A stretch of 39,466 bases of DNA from Flavobacteriia bacterium. Its GTDB lineage: Bacteria; Bacteroidota; Bacteroidia; Flavobacteriales_D; Crocinitomicaceae. Position 1 is the first letter of the stretch, and every line of letters starts with the position of its first letter. The translations under genes were made by a program, and so were the position numbers. The notes under the pieces were generated by a model that saw only the letters and a list, made by a program, of their open reading frames with translations, searched no databases and was not told the DNA's origin. The DNA is taken from the NCBI GenBank assembly GCA_016178305.1, contig JACOTM010000090.1, positions 1 through 39,466 of the forward strand. Direction: 5' to 3'. Positions 9,227 through 16,860 of the stretch are shown one piece after another.

Positions 9227-9505
9227 TTAAGTATAGATTTCTCCATTTATTATTTTAATAACATAACTTATTACCATAATCGTAACTGCCGTAATATATG
9301 TTCCTAAAATAATTTTTGCTCCATTTTTTAATTTAAAAATCAAATGTATTGCCACTAAAAGAAATGAAGCTAAAAAAGGAATAGTTGCTGGAAACATTTG
9401 AATACTTTCTATAATATTACCATCCATTAATAAAAAAAAAGAGCGTTGAAACCCACAGGTCAAACACTCAATTCCAAGATTTTCCTTCCAGCTACAAGCA
9501 ATCAT
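9227..9505 (-). CDS. DUF2752 membrane protein
   Basis: A 92-residue protein with the DUF2752 signature: ECLTCGFQRSFFLLMDGNII (CxxC, then GxxRSxxxLxxGN) and a later proline segment MFPATIPFL before two membrane helices. The family is small and uncharacterised. Its ATG overlaps the TGA of the preceding CCC-motif gene (9502-9505), a sign of translational coupling. DUF2752 genes often sit with CCC-motif membrane proteins in Flavobacteriia, as here. Several proteins of this family start near their CxxC, so the short N-terminus is normal. Confidence 0.85.
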   Translation of the reverse strand: MIACSWKENLGIECLTCGFQRSFFLLMDGNIIESIQMFPATIPFLASFLLVAIHLIFKLKNGAKIILGTYITAVTIMVISYVIKIINGEIYT

Positions 9506-9846
9506 TTATAGCGAAACATTGGTCCATTTTTAAAGATAAATGTAAATGCTATTACAAGTATTATTAAATACAAAATGGATAATGATAGCCCTATAATTCC
9601 ACAAACTTTTCCAGCTTTTGAAGTTTTAAATGACACTTCATATTGTGCTTGATTTTCTTCATATAAATATTTATCTTTTTTATGAAGTACCAATGCAATT
9701 ATTCCACAAATAATCCCAGGCAAAGCATAAAATAGACATCCAACAATTGAAACAATTCCTAAAACAAGAACTGGCACTGCATTCGGTACCGACTTTTGAA
9801 TGAGATTATTTGTATTTGTATTTTCAATATCAATTATTTCTTCCAT
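9502..9846 (-). CDS. CCC-motif membrane protein, third copy of a tandem trio
   Basis: 114 residues. A short polar N-terminus, then PNAVPVLVLGIVSIVGCLF, a helix, GIICGIIALVLHKKDK, a cytoplasmic loop (LYEENQAQYEVSFKTSKAG) and a third helix. This is the DUF4190-like CCC-motif family of Flavobacteriia. The name-giving cysteine triplet is reduced here to one cysteine in VGCLFYAL. Function is unknown; the KKDKYLY segment after the second helix is kept in all three copies. It is coupled to DUF2752 by an ATGA overlap. Confidence 0.8.
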   Translation of the reverse strand: MEEIIDIENTNTNNLIQKSVPNAVPVLVLGIVSIVGCLFYALPGIICGIIALVLHKKDKYLYEENQAQYEVSFKTSKAGKVCGIIGLSLSILYLIILVIAFTFIFKNGPMFRYK

Positions 9847-9855
9847 AATTTAAGT

Positions 9856-10188
9856 TTAACGATGTGTAGCAAATGAGGCAAACATTGTGCCTATAAAAAT
9901 TAGATAAAACACAATTATTAATAAATAAACAGCAGAAAGAATTAAACCAATCAATCCACATATATATCCAGCTCTTGAGGTTTTAAATGAAATTTCATAC
10001 ATTGCATTATTTGATTCATATAAAACTTTATCTTTTTTGTGTAAAACCATAGAAATAATCCCGCAAACTAAACCTGGAATTCCCCAAGCAGCACAAGTTA
10101 CGATTGAAATTATTCCCAACACTAACACAGCTGTTGCATTAGGTAAAGTTTGAGGTTTTTGGTTTGAATTGTCTAAACTTTCTTCCAT
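9856..10188 (-). CDS. CCC-motif membrane protein, second copy
   Basis: 110 residues, same layout as its two neighbours: PNATAVLVLGIISIVTCAAW, GLVCGIISMVLHKKDKVLYE, then an FKTSRAGYICGLIGL third helix. The CCC position reads TCAAW, so one cysteine is left. The start is 10 bases after the stop of the first copy and the stop is 9 bases before the third copy, so all three are read from one transcript. Confidence 0.8.
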   Translation of the reverse strand: MEESLDNSNQKPQTLPNATAVLVLGIISIVTCAAWGIPGLVCGIISMVLHKKDKVLYESNNAMYEISFKTSRAGYICGLIGLILSAVYLLIIVFYLIFIGTMFASFATHR

Positions 10189-10198
10189 ATTTTTTAAA

Positions 10199-10528
10199 TT
10201 AATGTGGGAATTTAGTGATTAATGAATAAATAAAATAAAAATAAAAAACTCCAAAAATAATCATCAAGAAAGATAAAGAAACTCCCACAATTCCACAGAT
10301 ATATCCTGCTCTTGAAGATTTAAATGAGTTTTCAAAAACATCTGGATTAAATTCATAAATTAATTTATCTTTTTTATGCAATATTATCGCAACAATACCG
10401 CAAATTAATCCTAGAACTCCCCAAAAAACATAACCAACTAATGAAACAATACCTAATACTAAGACAGCAATTGCGTTAGGTAATGATTTTGATTGTAATT
10501 TTTCATTTAAGCCCAATTGATCTTCCAT
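10199..10528 (-). CDS. CCC-motif membrane protein, first copy
   Basis: 109 residues and first gene of the cluster after the terminator at 10548-10582. PNAIAVLVLGIVSLVGYVFW, GLICGIVAIILHKKDKLIYE and FKSSRAGYICGIVGVSLS match the other copies. The CCC position is GYVFW, so no cysteine remains there. This copy has diverged most at the motif, while the helix-flanking HKKDK and SRAG are kept. Role unknown; perhaps a subunit or modulator in a small membrane complex with DUF2752 (inference). Confidence 0.8.
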   Translation of the reverse strand: MEDQLGLNEKLQSKSLPNAIAVLVLGIVSLVGYVFWGVLGLICGIVAIILHKKDKLIYEFNPDVFENSFKSSRAGYICGIVGVSLSFLMIIFGVFYFYFIYSLITKFPH

Positions 10529-11192: not shown

Positions 11193-12182
11193 CTAATCAA
11201 ATGAAGTATCTGTAAGTGTTTTTAAAAATAATAACAATTGATTTTTTTCTTTCAATGATAAATTAAATTTTTGAATTATTTTACTTTGAGTTTTGTTTCC
11301 TGAAGCACCTTTTTGATAATGCTGAATTACGTCTTCTAATGTTGTAATACTCCCATCATGCATATAAGGATAGGTTAATTCAATATTCCGCAGAGATGGA
11401 ATTTTAAAAAAGCCTATGAAACTTGAATCATTTTCTATTCTAAATTTCCCTTTATCATTAATCGCCGAATAATCTTTGTATAACCCATTATTTTCAACTT
11501 TATAGGTTGTAAAATAAGGTGCTGGATGACATTGAATACAATATAACTTTTCAGAAAATAGTTGCCATCCTTTCAATTCATCTTTGCTCATTGCTTTTTT
11601 ATTTCCTTGATAAAAATATTGATCAAATCGACTGTTTTTTGAAATTAACGACCGCTCATAAGCTGCAATACTTCTCGTCAGAACAAATGGGTCGAAATCT
11701 CTTTTAAAAATAAATTGCGCTGCTGATTGGTACTTTTGAATAGCTCTCAATTTTTTAATTAAATCCAGCATATTCATATCCATTTCTACGTGTTCTTGAA
11801 TCGGAACAATCACTTGTTTTTCTAATGTTTCTAAATGACCATCAAACATCACGGTTGGCAAATATCCTGCATTTAAAATACTCGGCGAATTGCGTTCCGT
11901 TTTTCTTCCATAAACACCATCACTTACTTTTTTCCTATCTGAAAAAGCAAATTCAGGAATGTGACAACTTGCACAGGCTATCGAATCGTTTATAGATAGT
12001 CGTTTATCAAAAAAAAGCTCCCGCCCCAGTTCAATTTTTTCAAGTGTTGACAAATTATCTTTGGGCTCTTCAATCGCCTTGAAATTTGATAGTGTGCTTT
12101 TAGAGGAAAAACAAGAGTGTATAAAAATAGGGATGACAAAAATCACCCCTATAAAAAAAACAGTATGTCTAAAAAGAATCAT
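11193..12182 (-). CDS. Di-haem cytochrome c peroxidase family protein, MbnH/MauG-like lipoprotein
   Basis: 329 residues. Residues 1-24 form an export signal with a likely lipidation cysteine (FIHSC24F), so it is probably anchored in a membrane facing the periplasm. Two c-type haem motifs are visible, CASCH (C70-C73-H74) and CIQCH (C215-C218-H219), plus the family's YPYMHDGSIT segment (about 272-280). The bacterial CcP/MauG fold uses both haems, either to reduce hydrogen peroxide or, in MauG and MbnH, to form a bis-Fe(IV) state that oxidises a partner protein's side chain. Its ATG overlaps the stop of the MbnP-like gene by 4 bases, the arrangement of MbnP-MbnH, so an MbnH-type role is favoured over simple peroxidase. 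Confidence 0.88.
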   Translation of the reverse strand: MILFRHTVFFIGVIFVIPIFIHSCFSSKSTLSNFKAIEEPKDNLSTLEKIELGRELFFDKRLSINDSIACASCHIPEFAFSDRKKVSDGVYGRKTERNSPSILNAGYLPTVMFDGHLETLEKQVIVPIQEHVEMDMNMLDLIKKLRAIQKYQSAAQFIFKRDFDPFVLTRSIAAYERSLISKNSRFDQYFYQGNKKAMSKDELKGWQLFSEKLYCIQCHPAPYFTTYKVENNGLYKDYSAINDKGKFRIENDSSFIGFFKIPSLRNIELTYPYMHDGSITTLEDVIQHYQKGASGNKTQSKIIQKFNLSLKEKNQLLLFLKTLTDTSFD

Positions 12183-13141
12183 TTGATAATTCTTAATTTA
12201 TTTAATTGGTTTCCATCTTTTGAATAAACAATAAACCAATAATTTCCTGTAGAAATATTTGAAATTTGAACTAAACCATTATTAGAAGTTATCGTACCAG
12301 AATTAAGTTTTGCTCCACCAATATTGATTAATTCATAATGAGAAGCATTTTGAAATTCACTCCAATTTACATCCAATGTGTTGTTAGAGGTAGTGTAAAA
12401 TAATTTTCCTTCTTCCAATTTCACGTTTTGAATTCCAGCATTTGCTTCAGCAATAAAGACAGGATAATTTTGTGTATTATTCATCAAAGTCACATTATTT
12501 CCAGAACTTCCATGTAAAATTCCATTTGTAGCCAAATTAATCCCTTTATACCATTGATCAATATTTGTTTGAATACTAATTTGATTTGCCTCATTAATCA
12601 TTAAAGATGTAATTGGTAATTGTATTGAACGATACAACATATCACTTAATGAGAAAAATTCAAAAGCTTTATTTGGAACATTATCTCCGTTATCATCTAC
12701 AATTCCAATAATACCTACTTGATTATATCCAGATGTCCAACCCCATTGCATTGAAGGCGATTGATAACTCAACGGATGATCAACCGGATAAGTTGAAATA
12801 TCTAAATGATTTAAAGCTTGTGGAACACCAACACCAAAATTAATTTGCTCGACATTGGTTACATTTTGCACACCAAAATCAAATAAAAAATTGTCATTTT
12901 TAACAATAATTACAGTATCCGATAAATCTAAATCTTGGCCACCATCATGAATAACATGAATGTTGGAGATATAATAGTATAAATTGGTAATGGAAACTTT
13001 TTCTCCCGTAATATTACTTACAACCGTGTTAAATTCTAATGGTACTCCCCCATTACAAGGGCGAAAAGATACTTTTAAATTCGTTTGTGAAAAAGCAGAA
13101 GAAAAAATCAAAAGTATTCCTGAAAGTATAATTTGTTTCAT
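12179..13141 (-). CDS. MbnP-like copper-binding protein with a T9SS-like tail
   Basis: 320 residues from ATG 13141 (MKQIILSGILLIFSSAFSQ); the frame opens at 13189, but only the later start has a clean signal peptide and the promoter at 13160-13190 lies between. Residues about 20-250 match the MbnP-like family: FRPCNGG, ITNLYYYISNI, NFGVG, LNHLD and MQWGWTSGYN (131-140). MbnP proteins bind copper after an MbnH partner turns a tryptophan into kynurenine; W133 and W135 are candidates, but I cannot say which. Residues about 260-320 (ISNISTGNYWFIVYSKDGNQ, ending LNKLRIIK) look like a T9SS type A sorting tail, so the protein may reach the cell surface. The di-haem partner follows with an ATGA overlap. 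Confidence 0.85.
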   Translation of the reverse strand: MKQIILSGILLIFSSAFSQTNLKVSFRPCNGGVPLEFNTVVSNITGEKVSITNLYYYISNIHVIHDGGQDLDLSDTVIIVKNDNFLFDFGVQNVTNVEQINFGVGVPQALNHLDISTYPVDHPLSYQSPSMQWGWTSGYNQVGIIGIVDDNGDNVPNKAFEFFSLSDMLYRSIQLPITSLMINEANQISIQTNIDQWYKGINLATNGILHGSSGNNVTLMNNTQNYPVFIAEANAGIQNVKLEEGKLFYTTSNNTLDVNWSEFQNASHYELINIGGAKLNSGTITSNNGLVQISNISTGNYWFIVYSKDGNQLNKLRIIK

Positions 13142-13217: not shown

Positions 13218-14462
13218 CTATTTGTTTTTCATATCATTTAGCATTTTGAAGGATAACCATCCTATAAAAATAATGACAGCGCCAATTACAAGCCACAAAA
13301 CAGTTTGATCCTCTTCTTGCGGTATTTCCATATCACTATTCTCAAGATTTTGAAGTTTTACAACATTATTAGAGCGGATTATTGGAATATTGGAAGGAAT
13401 CTTATCTTGAAAAAATGCCAAATCATAGGAAGGAGCTTCTAAATTTTTATCACCAAATTTTAAGATATATGTATCCCCCTTTTTTAAATCTGCTGTTAAA
13501 TAAGTATTGAGTTGAAACATTTCGATTTCTTTAATTTCCAAAGGAGGATTATCTTCATTTTCAATTATCAGATATAAATTTTGAGAAGAAATTCCATTCA
13601 AAACAAACTGATTAATTCCCTCTGAAGTTAATTCAAATTGTTGCAAAGGTTGCAACTCTCGTCTAATTTCCCCATTCGTTGTATCAACGATGCAGTTTGC
13701 TAAAAAAGCATTTCTCTTATATAAAGCAGGGGATGAAATTTGAATTTTACATTTATGTATCAATTGTAAATCTGGCAGATTTAATTGAACATAACTTCTT
13801 TTATCATGGATACTATCAGCAAAATGAAAAGTCAAATTTTGAAGCTTCGTGTAATTCCCTTCTGCTGACGTACTGATATAAAATCCAGCTTTCAATACAT
13901 TTATCGGTTCTGTGAAACGGTCATTTATTTCGATTTTTAAATAATTATAGTTACTTAAGGGGAAATTCATTTGAATCATTTCAGCAGTTTCAGTGTTGCT
14001 GAAAATAGAATTAAATAAATAATTATCTTTAATGATAAACCAATTATTTAAGTCATCACTTCCTGATATTTTGACTTCTTTTTGAACATCCGAATTTTGA
14101 ATAATTAAATTCAAATTATTCAAACTTTTTTTCGTCGTGTTTTGAAGAATTATTTCCGTTTTTACATGTGGTTGAATTATGCGTTTGATGATTGGATATT
14201 CAATAAAATGGTTGTTTAAATAATTAGTAGATTCAAAATTAAGTACGTAAGGCACTTCTTTTCCTTCTTTATCAAAAAGACGAATATCTGAAAAATCACT
14301 CTTCACTTGTGCGCTTATCCTAGGATCTAATACAATTTTATGAAAGCCAGATTTTTGAACATTTTCAATCGTTGCTTGCCACCTAAAATCTTGCGCAAAT
14401 AACACATTTATACAAAATATGAATCCTAAAAAAAGGAATAAAGTCTTAATCATTGTTCTCAT
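13218..14462 (-). CDS. DUF3999 family exported membrane protein
   Basis: 414 residues from ATG 14462 (MRTMIKTLFLFLGFIFCINV), with a signal peptide ending LFAQ. The frame also has ATGs at 14480 and 14453; all overlap the end of the DUF2339 gene, and 14462 gives a good basic N-terminus. The body is beta-rich (FRWQATIENVQKSGFHKIVL, DIRLFDKEGKEVPYVL), matching DUF3999, and ends in one membrane helix (TVLWLVIGAVIIFIGWLSF) and a short basic tail. It is therefore an inner-membrane protein with most of its mass in the periplasm. DUF3999 and DUF2339 genes are neighbours in many bacteria and probably work together, possibly in envelope or glycan functions; the activity is unknown. Confidence 0.85.
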   Translation of the reverse strand: MRTMIKTLFLFLGFIFCINVLFAQDFRWQATIENVQKSGFHKIVLDPRISAQVKSDFSDIRLFDKEGKEVPYVLNFESTNYLNNHFIEYPIIKRIIQPHVKTEIILQNTTKKSLNNLNLIIQNSDVQKEVKISGSDDLNNWFIIKDNYLFNSIFSNTETAEMIQMNFPLSNYNYLKIEINDRFTEPINVLKAGFYISTSAEGNYTKLQNLTFHFADSIHDKRSYVQLNLPDLQLIHKCKIQISSPALYKRNAFLANCIVDTTNGEIRRELQPLQQFELTSEGINQFVLNGISSQNLYLIIENEDNPPLEIKEIEMFQLNTYLTADLKKGDTYILKFGDKNLEAPSYDLAFFQDKIPSNIPIIRSNNVVKLQNLENSDMEIPQEEDQTVLWLVIGAVIIFIGWLSFKMLNDMKNK

Positions 14463-16860
14463 TTTGAATTTTAGAATCATTATCTAACACTAGTTTTTTT
14501 AATTTTTGATACATGAATGACACGACTAATAATATGATTCCTAAGAAAATAAAAGCTGTTATTTTTCCTCCTTCGGAAATACCTCGAATATCAAAAATAA
14601 ACAATTTAAGTATGATGATTAAAAATAAAGTTAATGATATGATTCTCAAATCTCTTCGTTTAAAACGCATCCCAATAAACATCAATACAAAAGAGTAAAT
14701 TCCCCACAAAATTGGAAAGCCTATTTTATGATTTTGATTTAATGTATGCTGTATATAAAGCAATGCATTTTCGCTTTGATCTTTCATCACTACAAAATTA
14801 TCCAATTCAGCACTTGAAACATAAATAACAATAAAGCTAATAAACCACATGATAAATAAATCTAATTCTTTTACGGCAAAATCTTTCATTTTGGAATTTT
14901 TGAAAGTAATAAACAATAAAAGCAAGACTAAAATAACATCTACATAGTGAAACAAATAATTCCCTAAACTAACTTCTTTTGCCATTAAATATGCTTCTCG
15001 AACGTTTTTAACCATTTCATTGTAAAACAAGGGGTAGGATAAAATTCCTAAAATCCCCAGAAACACGGCTATTTCCAACAAATAAGGAATCGCTTTATAT
15101 TTTCTTGCAAAAAGATTTAATAAAATTAAAAATGAAATATTAAATGCTCCAACAATAATATCTTTTGTAGCATAATAATGAACATGCTGATTTAGTTGAC
15201 ACCTTAATTCTAAAAGACAAGTGATATAAACAACTAAAACAAGCGCAATATTAATCAGTAATTTATAAACTTTATATATATCTGAATTCGATTCTTCCTT
15301 TTTTAATAATCGCAATGTTCCTATTAAACTTCCTGTCACAAACAATCCTGTAATAAACCCTTTATTGAAAATTAAAGGACGTACCTCCACAGGATAACGG
15401 AAATAGATATTTTCCCAATCTTCCAATAAACTAATTCCCATCAAACATAAAACTATAACAGATGCATATTTCATCAGACGAATAGACGATTTCTGGTAAA
15501 GCCAAATTAACAATACAGATTCTGCTGCCCAAAAAAGCGTAATATAGTTTCCTTCTAATTGAATCGGTGCGGTTAAACTTACAAAAGTTAATACTATTCC
15601 TATCAGAAAGTAAACCAATGTTTTGTCGATCTGCTGTTTTCGAAATAAAATAAATGCAAAAAACAAGTTGAATAAAGAAATTAATAAAGTAAACAATCCA
15701 TTATATACTCCTCCATTGAAATGAAAAAGAATAAAAATACCTGCCGAAAAATACAGAAATGTATTACTTAATAAAATTGCAATGTCAAATCCTGAGAATT
15801 TTCTATTTGATTTCAAATTGTTTACAACATTCATCGAGAAGAACAATAAATAGAAAATAGTAGCAAAAATAAAAGCCCCTGTATAAGGTGGATTTTTCAT
15901 CCAAATTACTTTCGTAAGCAACCAACCTGCAAACAAAACAATTGTAAATATATATGTTAAAATATTTAATATATTCCATTTTTTAAAGAATGCTAAGGCA
16001 AGAATTCCTGAATTTAAAATGGTCACATAAGTAAATAACGCGATGTAATTTCCTTCGCCTGTACTTAATAAAAAAGGGCTTGCAAACCCACCAATGAGAG
16101 CTAAAATGGCTAATTCCTTTCGATCATAAGAAATGGACAGTAACACGGAAAAAGCAGTAATAATAACCATAATTATAAACGCACCTATTTGGCTAAACAC
16201 ATGATATTCATGAAAGGCTATAGTAATCGTAAAATATAAAATAGCTAATCCCCCACCAACTAAAACCGAACTAAAAGCAGCAAAAGATTTTCGAAGTTTA
16301 TGGGCTAAAGCAATTAATACTCCACCACAAAACACACCGATAGACGTTCGTCCATAAACTCCAATCCAATCTTTACTAATTGCAAATTTCACAAAGAAGC
16401 CAATTCCCAATACAAGAATTCCAATTCCAATTTTATTAATTAAATTTTCACCAATAAATTTTTCTAAATCTGGATTTCTTTCAAAAAACGTTGGCTTAAC
16501 TTGTTTTGGTGCCTGTTTTTGTTTTGGTGCCAAAGTTGAAGGAAGGGGCTTAGAACTTGTACTACTTTCTGTAATTATTTGAATTGGTTTAGGGTTGGAA
16601 ATACTTGTTGGAACAACTTCAATAGGAGGTTTTACATTTTCTTGAATAACCGCATCTACCTTTGACTTAAGTTCAACTTCTTTATTTTCAATAGATTGAT
16701 CTTTCAGTTTATTTTCAATAGAAGTTTGCATTGCTTGCATTTGGCGTTCTAAAGCTTCCATTTTTTTTAAAAATAACCTACTTTGATCAGAGATGTTATT
16801 TTTTATGATTATAATAAAAATGATTAAAAATAAGATTCCTAAAAAAAACAATGATTCCAT
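14446..16860 (-). CDS. DUF2339 polytopic membrane protein
   Basis: 804 residues. One membrane helix at 3-20, a coiled coil at about 28-70 (RLFLKKMEALERQMQAMQTS), a proline/lysine-rich linker to about 125, then the DUF2339 core starting NPDLEKFIGENLINKIGIGI and WIGVYGRTSIGVFCGG. The rest is nearly continuous hydrophobic segments, roughly 20 or more helices, to about residue 795. The family is uncharacterised and is usually found with DUF3999, whose start it overlaps here. The layout suggests a large membrane complex with a cytoplasmic or periplasmic coiled-coil stalk. First gene of the run that ends with MbnP and MbnH. Confidence 0.88.
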   Translation of the reverse strand: MESLFFLGILFLIIFIIIIKNNISDQSRLFLKKMEALERQMQAMQTSIENKLKDQSIENKEVELKSKVDAVIQENVKPPIEVVPTSISNPKPIQIITESSTSSKPLPSTLAPKQKQAPKQVKPTFFERNPDLEKFIGENLINKIGIGILVLGIGFFVKFAISKDWIGVYGRTSIGVFCGGVLIALAHKLRKSFAAFSSVLVGGGLAILYFTITIAFHEYHVFSQIGAFIIMVIITAFSVLLSISYDRKELAILALIGGFASPFLLSTGEGNYIALFTYVTILNSGILALAFFKKWNILNILTYIFTIVLFAGWLLTKVIWMKNPPYTGAFIFATIFYLLFFSMNVVNNLKSNRKFSGFDIAILLSNTFLYFSAGIFILFHFNGGVYNGLFTLLISLFNLFFAFILFRKQQIDKTLVYFLIGIVLTFVSLTAPIQLEGNYITLFWAAESVLLIWLYQKSSIRLMKYASVIVLCLMGISLLEDWENIYFRYPVEVRPLIFNKGFITGLFVTGSLIGTLRLLKKEESNSDIYKVYKLLINIALVLVVYITCLLELRCQLNQHVHYYATKDIIVGAFNISFLILLNLFARKYKAIPYLLEIAVFLGILGILSYPLFYNEMVKNVREAYLMAKEVSLGNYLFHYVDVILVLLLLFITFKNSKMKDFAVKELDLFIMWFISFIVIYVSSAELDNFVVMKDQSENALLYIQHTLNQNHKIGFPILWGIYSFVLMFIGMRFKRRDLRIISLTLFLIIILKLFIFDIRGISEGGKITAFIFLGIILLVVSFMYQKLKKLVLDNDSKIQNENND

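Follow-up and report, generated by a model that had tools for sequence, protein, structure and literature searches.

Surface proteins with a kynurenine-containing Cu(I) site are known from methanotrophs. Passages of PMC3912023 describe CorA of Methylomicrobium album BG8 and MopE/SACCP of Methylococcus capsulatus as proteins of this kind with a co-transcribed di-haem peroxidase, and place CorA and SACCP at the surface while CorB appears predominantly periplasmic, which gives a precedent for a maturase that stays in the periplasm and a substrate that is exported. MbnP/MbnH pairs occur far beyond the methanobactin producers, according to part of PMC3621798, and folded proteins cross the outer membrane via T9SS, as set out in part of PMC9251779. 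We analysed a stretch of 39,466 nucleotides from a Flavobacteriia bacterium (the window), for which the initial annotation had proposed a surface kynurenine-copper site built from an MbnP-like protein in a non-methanotroph. On the surface location and on the non-methanotroph host this proposal was overstated, since such surface sites are already known from CorA and MopE in the methanotrophs (passages of PMC3912023), and the MbnP family PF20243 was found in 185 of the 247 sampled genomes of the class. The CorA/CorB and MopE/SACCP systems, which were compared with the window pair by function only, differ from it in their site of kynurenine plus two histidines and in their methanotroph hosts. CorA and MopE are not known to be exported by T9SS.

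The pair of genes lies on the minus strand of the window. The MbnP-like open reading frame starts with the ATG at 13141 and stops at 12181-12179 (320 amino acids), and the MbnH-like frame starts with the ATG at 12182 and ends at 11193 (329 amino acids), so that an ATGA at 12182-12179 is common to the stop of the former and the start of the latter. The same 4-base overlap was found in the four closest relatives (L005-L008), which form with the window a clade of support 1.0, called here the window clade. "Tailed" is used below for MbnP copies with a long C-terminal extension. The features of the pair are as follows.

12179..13141, minus strand: MbnP-family gene, 320 amino acids, with a C-terminal sorting-type domain (PF20243, E 1.5e-23; 7l6g, Z 16.6)
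13085..13141, minus strand: residues 1-19, probably a Sec signal peptide (judged by eye; the model has a helix at 2-13)
12449..13084, minus strand: MbnP domain, residues 20-231 (model mean pLDDT 90; residues 17-234 align with 7l6g)
12737..12745, minus strand: WxW motif, W133-G134-W135, with W133 as the predicted MbnH target
12749..12751, minus strand: M131 of MxWxW, kept in 159/159 tailed copies
12653..12655, minus strand: F163, in place of the conserved histidine of the inferred metal site (Phe in all 5 window-clade sequences)
12512..12514, minus strand: H210, second inferred ligand position, kept in 159/159 tailed copies
12182..12409, minus strand: Ig-like C-terminal domain, residues 245-320, putatively of T9SS type (profile and predicted fold)
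12179..12182, minus strand: ATGA start/stop overlap that couples both genes (sequence)
11193..12182, minus strand: MbnH/MauG-type di-haem enzyme, 329 amino acids, probable lipoprotein with Cys24 (TIGR04039, 255 bits; CCP_MauG, E 4e-48)
11961..11975, minus strand: first haem motif CASCH, C70-H74 (sequence; 137/137 aligned enzymes, a set chosen for two CxxCH)
11526..11540, minus strand: second haem motif CIQCH, C215-H219 (sequence; 137/137 in the same set)
11316..11318, minus strand: Y289, where peroxidases have their axial methionine (aligned to a methionine of 3o5c and 1iqc)

The results of our profile searches supported the assignment to the MbnP family that had been made from the sequence alone. 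The window protein scored 84 bits against PF20243 (cut-off 27) and 38 bits against TIGR04052, the equivalog model of copper-binding MbnP, which is short of its cut-off of 140. The motif MQWGWTSGYN corresponds to residues 131-140 and both of its tryptophans, W133 and W135, are present. An AlphaFold2 model built from a 30-sequence alignment matched 7l6g best over residues 17-234 (202 residues, rmsd 3.0), while the next chain reached a Z of 9.6 and the lower rows of the structure search aligned almost solely with the tail. Foldseek ranked the six chains of 7l6g first (E 2.5e-7), and a profile comparison of the window family with five methanotroph and other MbnPs gave 97.3%. The entry 7l6g is the MbnP of Methylosinus trichosporium OB3b (Manesis et al. 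2021). The window pair shares with the OB3b system the MbnP fold, the WxW motif and an adjacent MbnH-type di-haem enzyme, while it differs in the added T9SS-type domain and in a phenylalanine at the position of the canonical H204. It also differs from the five canonical MbnPs in lacking their invariant cysteines, and it falls far under the TIGR04052 cut-off.

The coupling of this gene by ATGA to a di-haem protein with two CxxCH motifs was confirmed at the exact coordinates. The best NCBIfam model for the second protein was TIGR04039 (the MbnH family), under its equivalog cut-off of 363, and the best PDB match was 6e1c (E 2e-46), which is presumably the MbnH of M. trichosporium; classical bacterial peroxidases were matched strongly as well. 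Profile hits were aligned when they contained two CxxCH and at least 280 residues, identical ones being kept once, which retained 137 of 165, and this set includes second di-haem enzymes adjoining a pair. Y289 of the window enzyme aligns with a methionine of the classical peroxidases 3o5c and 1iqc that we take to be their axial haem ligand, as tyrosine presumably is in MauG, and a tyrosine occupies this position in 131 of the 137 enzymes. Position 113, which we take to be that of the inter-haem tryptophan of MauG and the classical peroxidases, is a phenylalanine in the window enzyme, which counts against the reading favoured below, although the position varies in relatives. The joint loss of this tryptophan and of H163 was considered as a signature of the window clade and was rejected, since position 113 varies across the whole set (Phe in 61 and Trp in 46 of 137). 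The leader of the clade enzymes ends in a lipoprotein-type cysteine, the lipobox being recognised by eye. At five tailed loci (L014-L018), a second di-haem gene follows the first and is cut by the locus end.

The AlphaFold2 model places residues 245-320 of the window MbnP in a separate seven-strand Ig-like domain, so that the C-terminus lies outside the MbnP fold. With the tryptophans of WxW present as well, neither of the two findings named in the initial annotation as contrary to it was obtained. These last 75 residues sit where relatives carry recognised T9SS sorting domains: Por_Secre_tail (PF18962) was found in 18 of the 30 members of an alignment of 21 tailed and 9 untailed MbnPs. The window tail itself matched neither of the curated sorting-domain models PF18962 (Pfam, E 0.01) and TIGR04183 (NCBIfam, E 0.1). 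The profile of the 30-member alignment found the solved T9SS C-terminal domains 8glj, RemZ and gingipain, with Endonuclease I (8glk) as the best match (E 1.6e-6), and when the tails found in the window clade and its close relatives were compared by profile with a set of four tails presumed to be of T9SS type, of which Pfam confirms one, the probability was 91.5%. Among the structure matches of the window model, the T9SS protein RemZ ranked 19th among many Ig/FN3 domains; this list is dominated by Ig domains and the absence of other families from it carries no meaning. The search for T9SS components covered SprA and PorU, and the same genome encodes both SprA (2118 bits) and the PorU sortase (1206 bits). 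The window protein thus resembles the T9SS type A substrates in its Ig-like C-terminal domain and in the presence of SprA and PorU in the genome, while it differs from them in a tail that lacks the PNP start and scores below the curated models. Given the Por_Secre_tail domains of its relatives, the profile matches to solved T9SS domains and the two T9SS genes, a diverged T9SS sorting domain is the best reading of the window tail, although it is not proven. The surface export proposed for this protein is likely in the light of the Ig-like fold, the relatives and the secretion genes, while a match of the window tail to a curated model was not obtained.

To describe the residues around the candidate site, we aligned 257 distinct MbnP-like open frames. 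The loci that supplied them had been chosen because they resembled the window, PF20243 or L003, and redundancy was removed only for identical C-terminal ends. All 160 frames of at least 308 residues had both W133 and W135; this set, selected only on length, gives the same picture as the final sets and includes one untailed long frame (L286). The final sets were drawn from frames carrying the WxW motif and were separated by the length after it, into 79 untailed copies (68-142 residues; L145, L171 and L272 are truncated C-terminally, and L171 probably belongs with the tailed copies) and 159 tailed copies (177-314 residues), with 16 copies lacking W133. Three rows were left out of these counts: L254 (gap), L280 (which has WxW and H163 but did not fit the search pattern) and L281, a WxW-less exception with W133, Gln163, no W135 and no MbnH found.

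The tailed copies kept M131 and H210 in 159/159 and H163 in 146/159. The untailed copies with WxW had M131 in 68/79, H163 in 79/79 and a neighbouring MbnH in 65/79, with a histidine (44 copies) or a methionine (15 copies) at position 210. Among the 16 copies without W133, H163 was present in none, position 210 was a histidine in none and a methionine in two, and MbnH was found beside one. Fisher's test on these counts gave a P of 2e-18, which overstates the evidence because the sequences are related. The 16 copies have MWF-type motifs in common and probably represent a single group of paralogues, so that W133 and H163 may have been lost together in one event. These paralogues (L003, L052, L054-L057, L059, L260-L268) carry Lys, Arg or Gln at position 163, and 15 of the 16 have no adjacent MbnH; one of them, L003, adjoins an apparent outer-membrane protein.

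The copper site of MbnP is reportedly formed by kynurenine together with one histidine, one methionine and a solvent molecule. In the five canonical MbnPs, which come from plasmids, H204 and M266 (H204 in the numbering of L174) are invariant and lie at or near window positions 163 and 210. Judged by this conservation, position 163 is likely to be that of the copper histidine, and position 210 or its neighbourhood that of the second ligand. A further invariant histidine of the canonical proteins, H154, corresponds to H112 of the window and could be an alternative ligand, which is less likely given that, among W133-bearing copies, a histidine occupies this position in just 87 of the 160 long and 18 of the 80 short ones.

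The exception at position 163 concerns the window itself. All five members of the window clade have a phenylalanine there, while L010, of the same genus and placed as sister to the clade (support 0.62), has a histidine. The residues that characterise the clade and are rare elsewhere include Q132, N140, Q141 and G143 besides F163, and no clade-specific His, Met or Cys that could replace H163 was found among them. Four of the 11 clade-specific residues of the MbnP domain fall within positions 131-146 (P 0.007, tested after the data had been seen). Comparison of the window with L005-L007 gave a dN of 0.30-0.33 and a dS of 1.1-1.4 for MbnP, and a dN of 0.26-0.27 and a dS of 1.7-2.2 for MbnH, with dS near saturation in both cases; these values indicate that both genes of the clade are under purifying selection. 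Since H163F and the neighbouring changes occur in genes under selection, the pocket appears to have been remodelled, and on the evidence of the sequences the site is rebuilt and not abandoned.

Other tailed copies without H163 carry an asparagine (L132 and L136, with no MbnH found), an arginine or a serine with MbnH (L154, L156, L158, L161 and L162), or an arginine with MbnH (L231). Two lineages outside the window clade, with six copies, thus lack H163 and keep both WxW and MbnH, so H163 may not be essential. One of them (L154, L156, L158, L161, L162) has the motif MDWSW or MDWGW, and Asp132 and Arg163 may form a pair in these proteins; in L161 and L162 the MbnP gene occurs in tandem copies. 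Parsimony on the length-defined set (n=160) required four changes at position 163.

The window pair is a member of a tailed subfamily in Flavobacteriales and other Bacteroidota. An adjacent MbnH on the same strand was found for 150 of the 159 tailed copies examined, the window copy included, and the recurrence of a tailed MbnP beside a di-haem gene in many other genomes makes the pairing more than chance. Close relatives of the window MbnP apparently come from Fluviicola and other Crocinitomicaceae. The tailed form was found in 6 of the 12 genomes of the genus and was absent from the matches in the other six, several of which are incomplete. No treatment of tailed MbnPs was found in the literature covered, which mostly excluded subscription papers, so that one may be in print. 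The window genome has three MbnP genes: the tailed one, an untailed one on contig C50 and a solo copy without WxW on contig C24. The C50 paralogue (L001) is a classical untailed MbnP with the motif MFWTWNSGY and an adjacent MbnH, and a protein with a T9SS-like tail (by eye) is encoded upstream of it. Untailed Bacteroidota pairs such as this one resemble the window pair in their WxW motif and, in 65 of 79 cases, their adjacent MbnH, while they differ from it in having no sorting domain and in keeping H163.

A link of the pair to nitric oxide sensing through H-NOX was considered and set aside, since the window genome has the two on different contigs (H-NOX at G000:C24:111471-111953). In the clade relatives G003, G008 and G009 (L180, L181 and L182), an H-NOX gene is found no more than 2 kb from the pair, divergent from it and near genes for a hybrid kinase and a sigma-54 regulator, which were recognised by a Pfam scan in L182 and as homologues by BLAST in L180 and L181. 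Of the 12 genomes of the genus, the 6 with H-NOX are also the 6 with a tailed MbnP. Across the family the link fails: five genomes of genus g2 (G071, G073-G076) have H-NOX and no match to the tailed MbnP query at 1e-6, and G243 and others have a tailed MbnP without H-NOX. Neither the window nor five relatives showed a simple sigma-54 pattern in the sequence preceding the MbnP gene.

Several other genes were observed near these pairs. At L185:7938-9116, adjoining a tailed pair that bears H163, a protein with multicopper-oxidase domains (domain scan on the L185 protein) has its own Por_Secre_tail, and a homologue lies at L184:7948-9132; this neighbour hints at a surface copper context. Small open frames of about 135-187 amino acids lie on the same strand just upstream of MbnP in L014, L016, L017, L021, L022, L023 and L025, and have a PP motif near their C-terminal end (by eye). 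In the window, DUF3999 and DUF2339 proteins are encoded upstream of the pair and on its strand (13218-16860), with no homologues beside the pair in the eight relatives compared, and three similar small membrane proteins of 109-114 amino acids are encoded in tandem at 9502-10528, an apparent local duplication.

Taken with the model and the sequence comparisons, these results lead us to favour, with moderate confidence, a T9SS-type MbnP with its own MbnH, in which W133 is probably still oxidised and copper binding is weakened, achieved with other ligands or gone. The copper site as first proposed was not supported by the comparison, because the near-universal His163 is a phenylalanine in the window and its four closest relatives, so that copper binding cannot be transferred by homology. 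It is possible, though in our judgement rather unlikely, that the pair nevertheless builds an ordinary surface kynurenine-copper site in which H210, H112, M131 or a nearby residue compensates for H163 and Cu(I) is bound as in MbnP. M131, W133, W135, H210 and MbnH are all kept, H112 stands at the place of an invariant histidine of the canonical MbnPs, the polar residues N140 and Q141 lie beside the motif in the window clade, and the six tailed copies without H163 outside the clade retain MbnH. Against this, H163 is the sole near-universal histidine in all three groups (the five canonical proteins and the untailed and tailed copies with WxW), it is missing where W133 is missing, and the clade offers no His, Met or Cys of its own as a substitute. 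A decaying and inactive relic would account for the loss of a conserved residue and for the six genomes of the genus in which the tailed form was unfound, several of them incomplete; we regard this as very improbable, as the open frames, their overlap and both haem motifs are kept in five genomes and dN is well under dS in both genes.

The remaining alternatives concern the tail and the enzyme. The C-terminal domain might instead act as a binding module in the periplasm, carry no sorting signal and leave the window MbnP there. This would agree with the failure of the window tail to match the curated T9SS models, with the frequency of Ig-like folds and with the 19th rank of RemZ among many Ig/FN3 domains; it is nonetheless improbable in view of the Por_Secre_tail domains at the same place in relatives, the profile matches to solved T9SS domains and the presence of SprA and PorU. 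The di-haem enzyme could be an ordinary cytochrome c peroxidase whose pairing with MbnP has nothing to do with tryptophan oxidation, as its strong matches to classical peroxidases and its score under the TIGR04039 cut-off might suggest. The tyrosine in place of the presumed axial methionine, the closest solved relative 6e1c, taken to be an MbnH, and the adjacency to MbnP in 150 of 159 tailed copies make this quite improbable.

In the pathway that we favour, a T9SS-type MbnP matured by its own MbnH, both proteins would enter the periplasm through Sec, and MbnH, anchored as a lipoprotein, would oxidise W133 once the MbnP domain has folded; in the characterised system, this reaction yields kynurenine. 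Export of the folded product would follow, with the Ig-like C-terminal domain directing it through SprA and PorU removing that domain at the cell surface. A Cu(I) site would probably be formed by the oxidised W133, H163 and H210 in most of the tailed relatives. In the window clade, the oxidised tryptophan is probably still made, and copper binding may be weakened, use other ligands or be gone. By homology, oxidation of the tryptophan and export of the window MbnP are likely, while an ordinary MbnP copper site is doubtful. A more specific proposal, which we make only tentatively, is that MbnH oxidises W133 without yielding a copper site of the known type, and that a pocket remodelled by H163F, Q132, N140, Q141 and G143 displays the oxidised tryptophan itself as an organic redox or binding group at the surface. 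If this were true, tryptophan oxidation by MbnH would be separate from copper binding. The natural series at position 163 (His, Arg, Ser, Asn and Phe), with WxW unchanged and MbnH mostly present, offers a direct test of whether MbnH serves copper alone or a broader chemistry. The existence of a tailed subfamily in Bacteroidota suggests that common environmental bacteria display on their surface a protein bearing a tryptophan derivative made by an enzyme.
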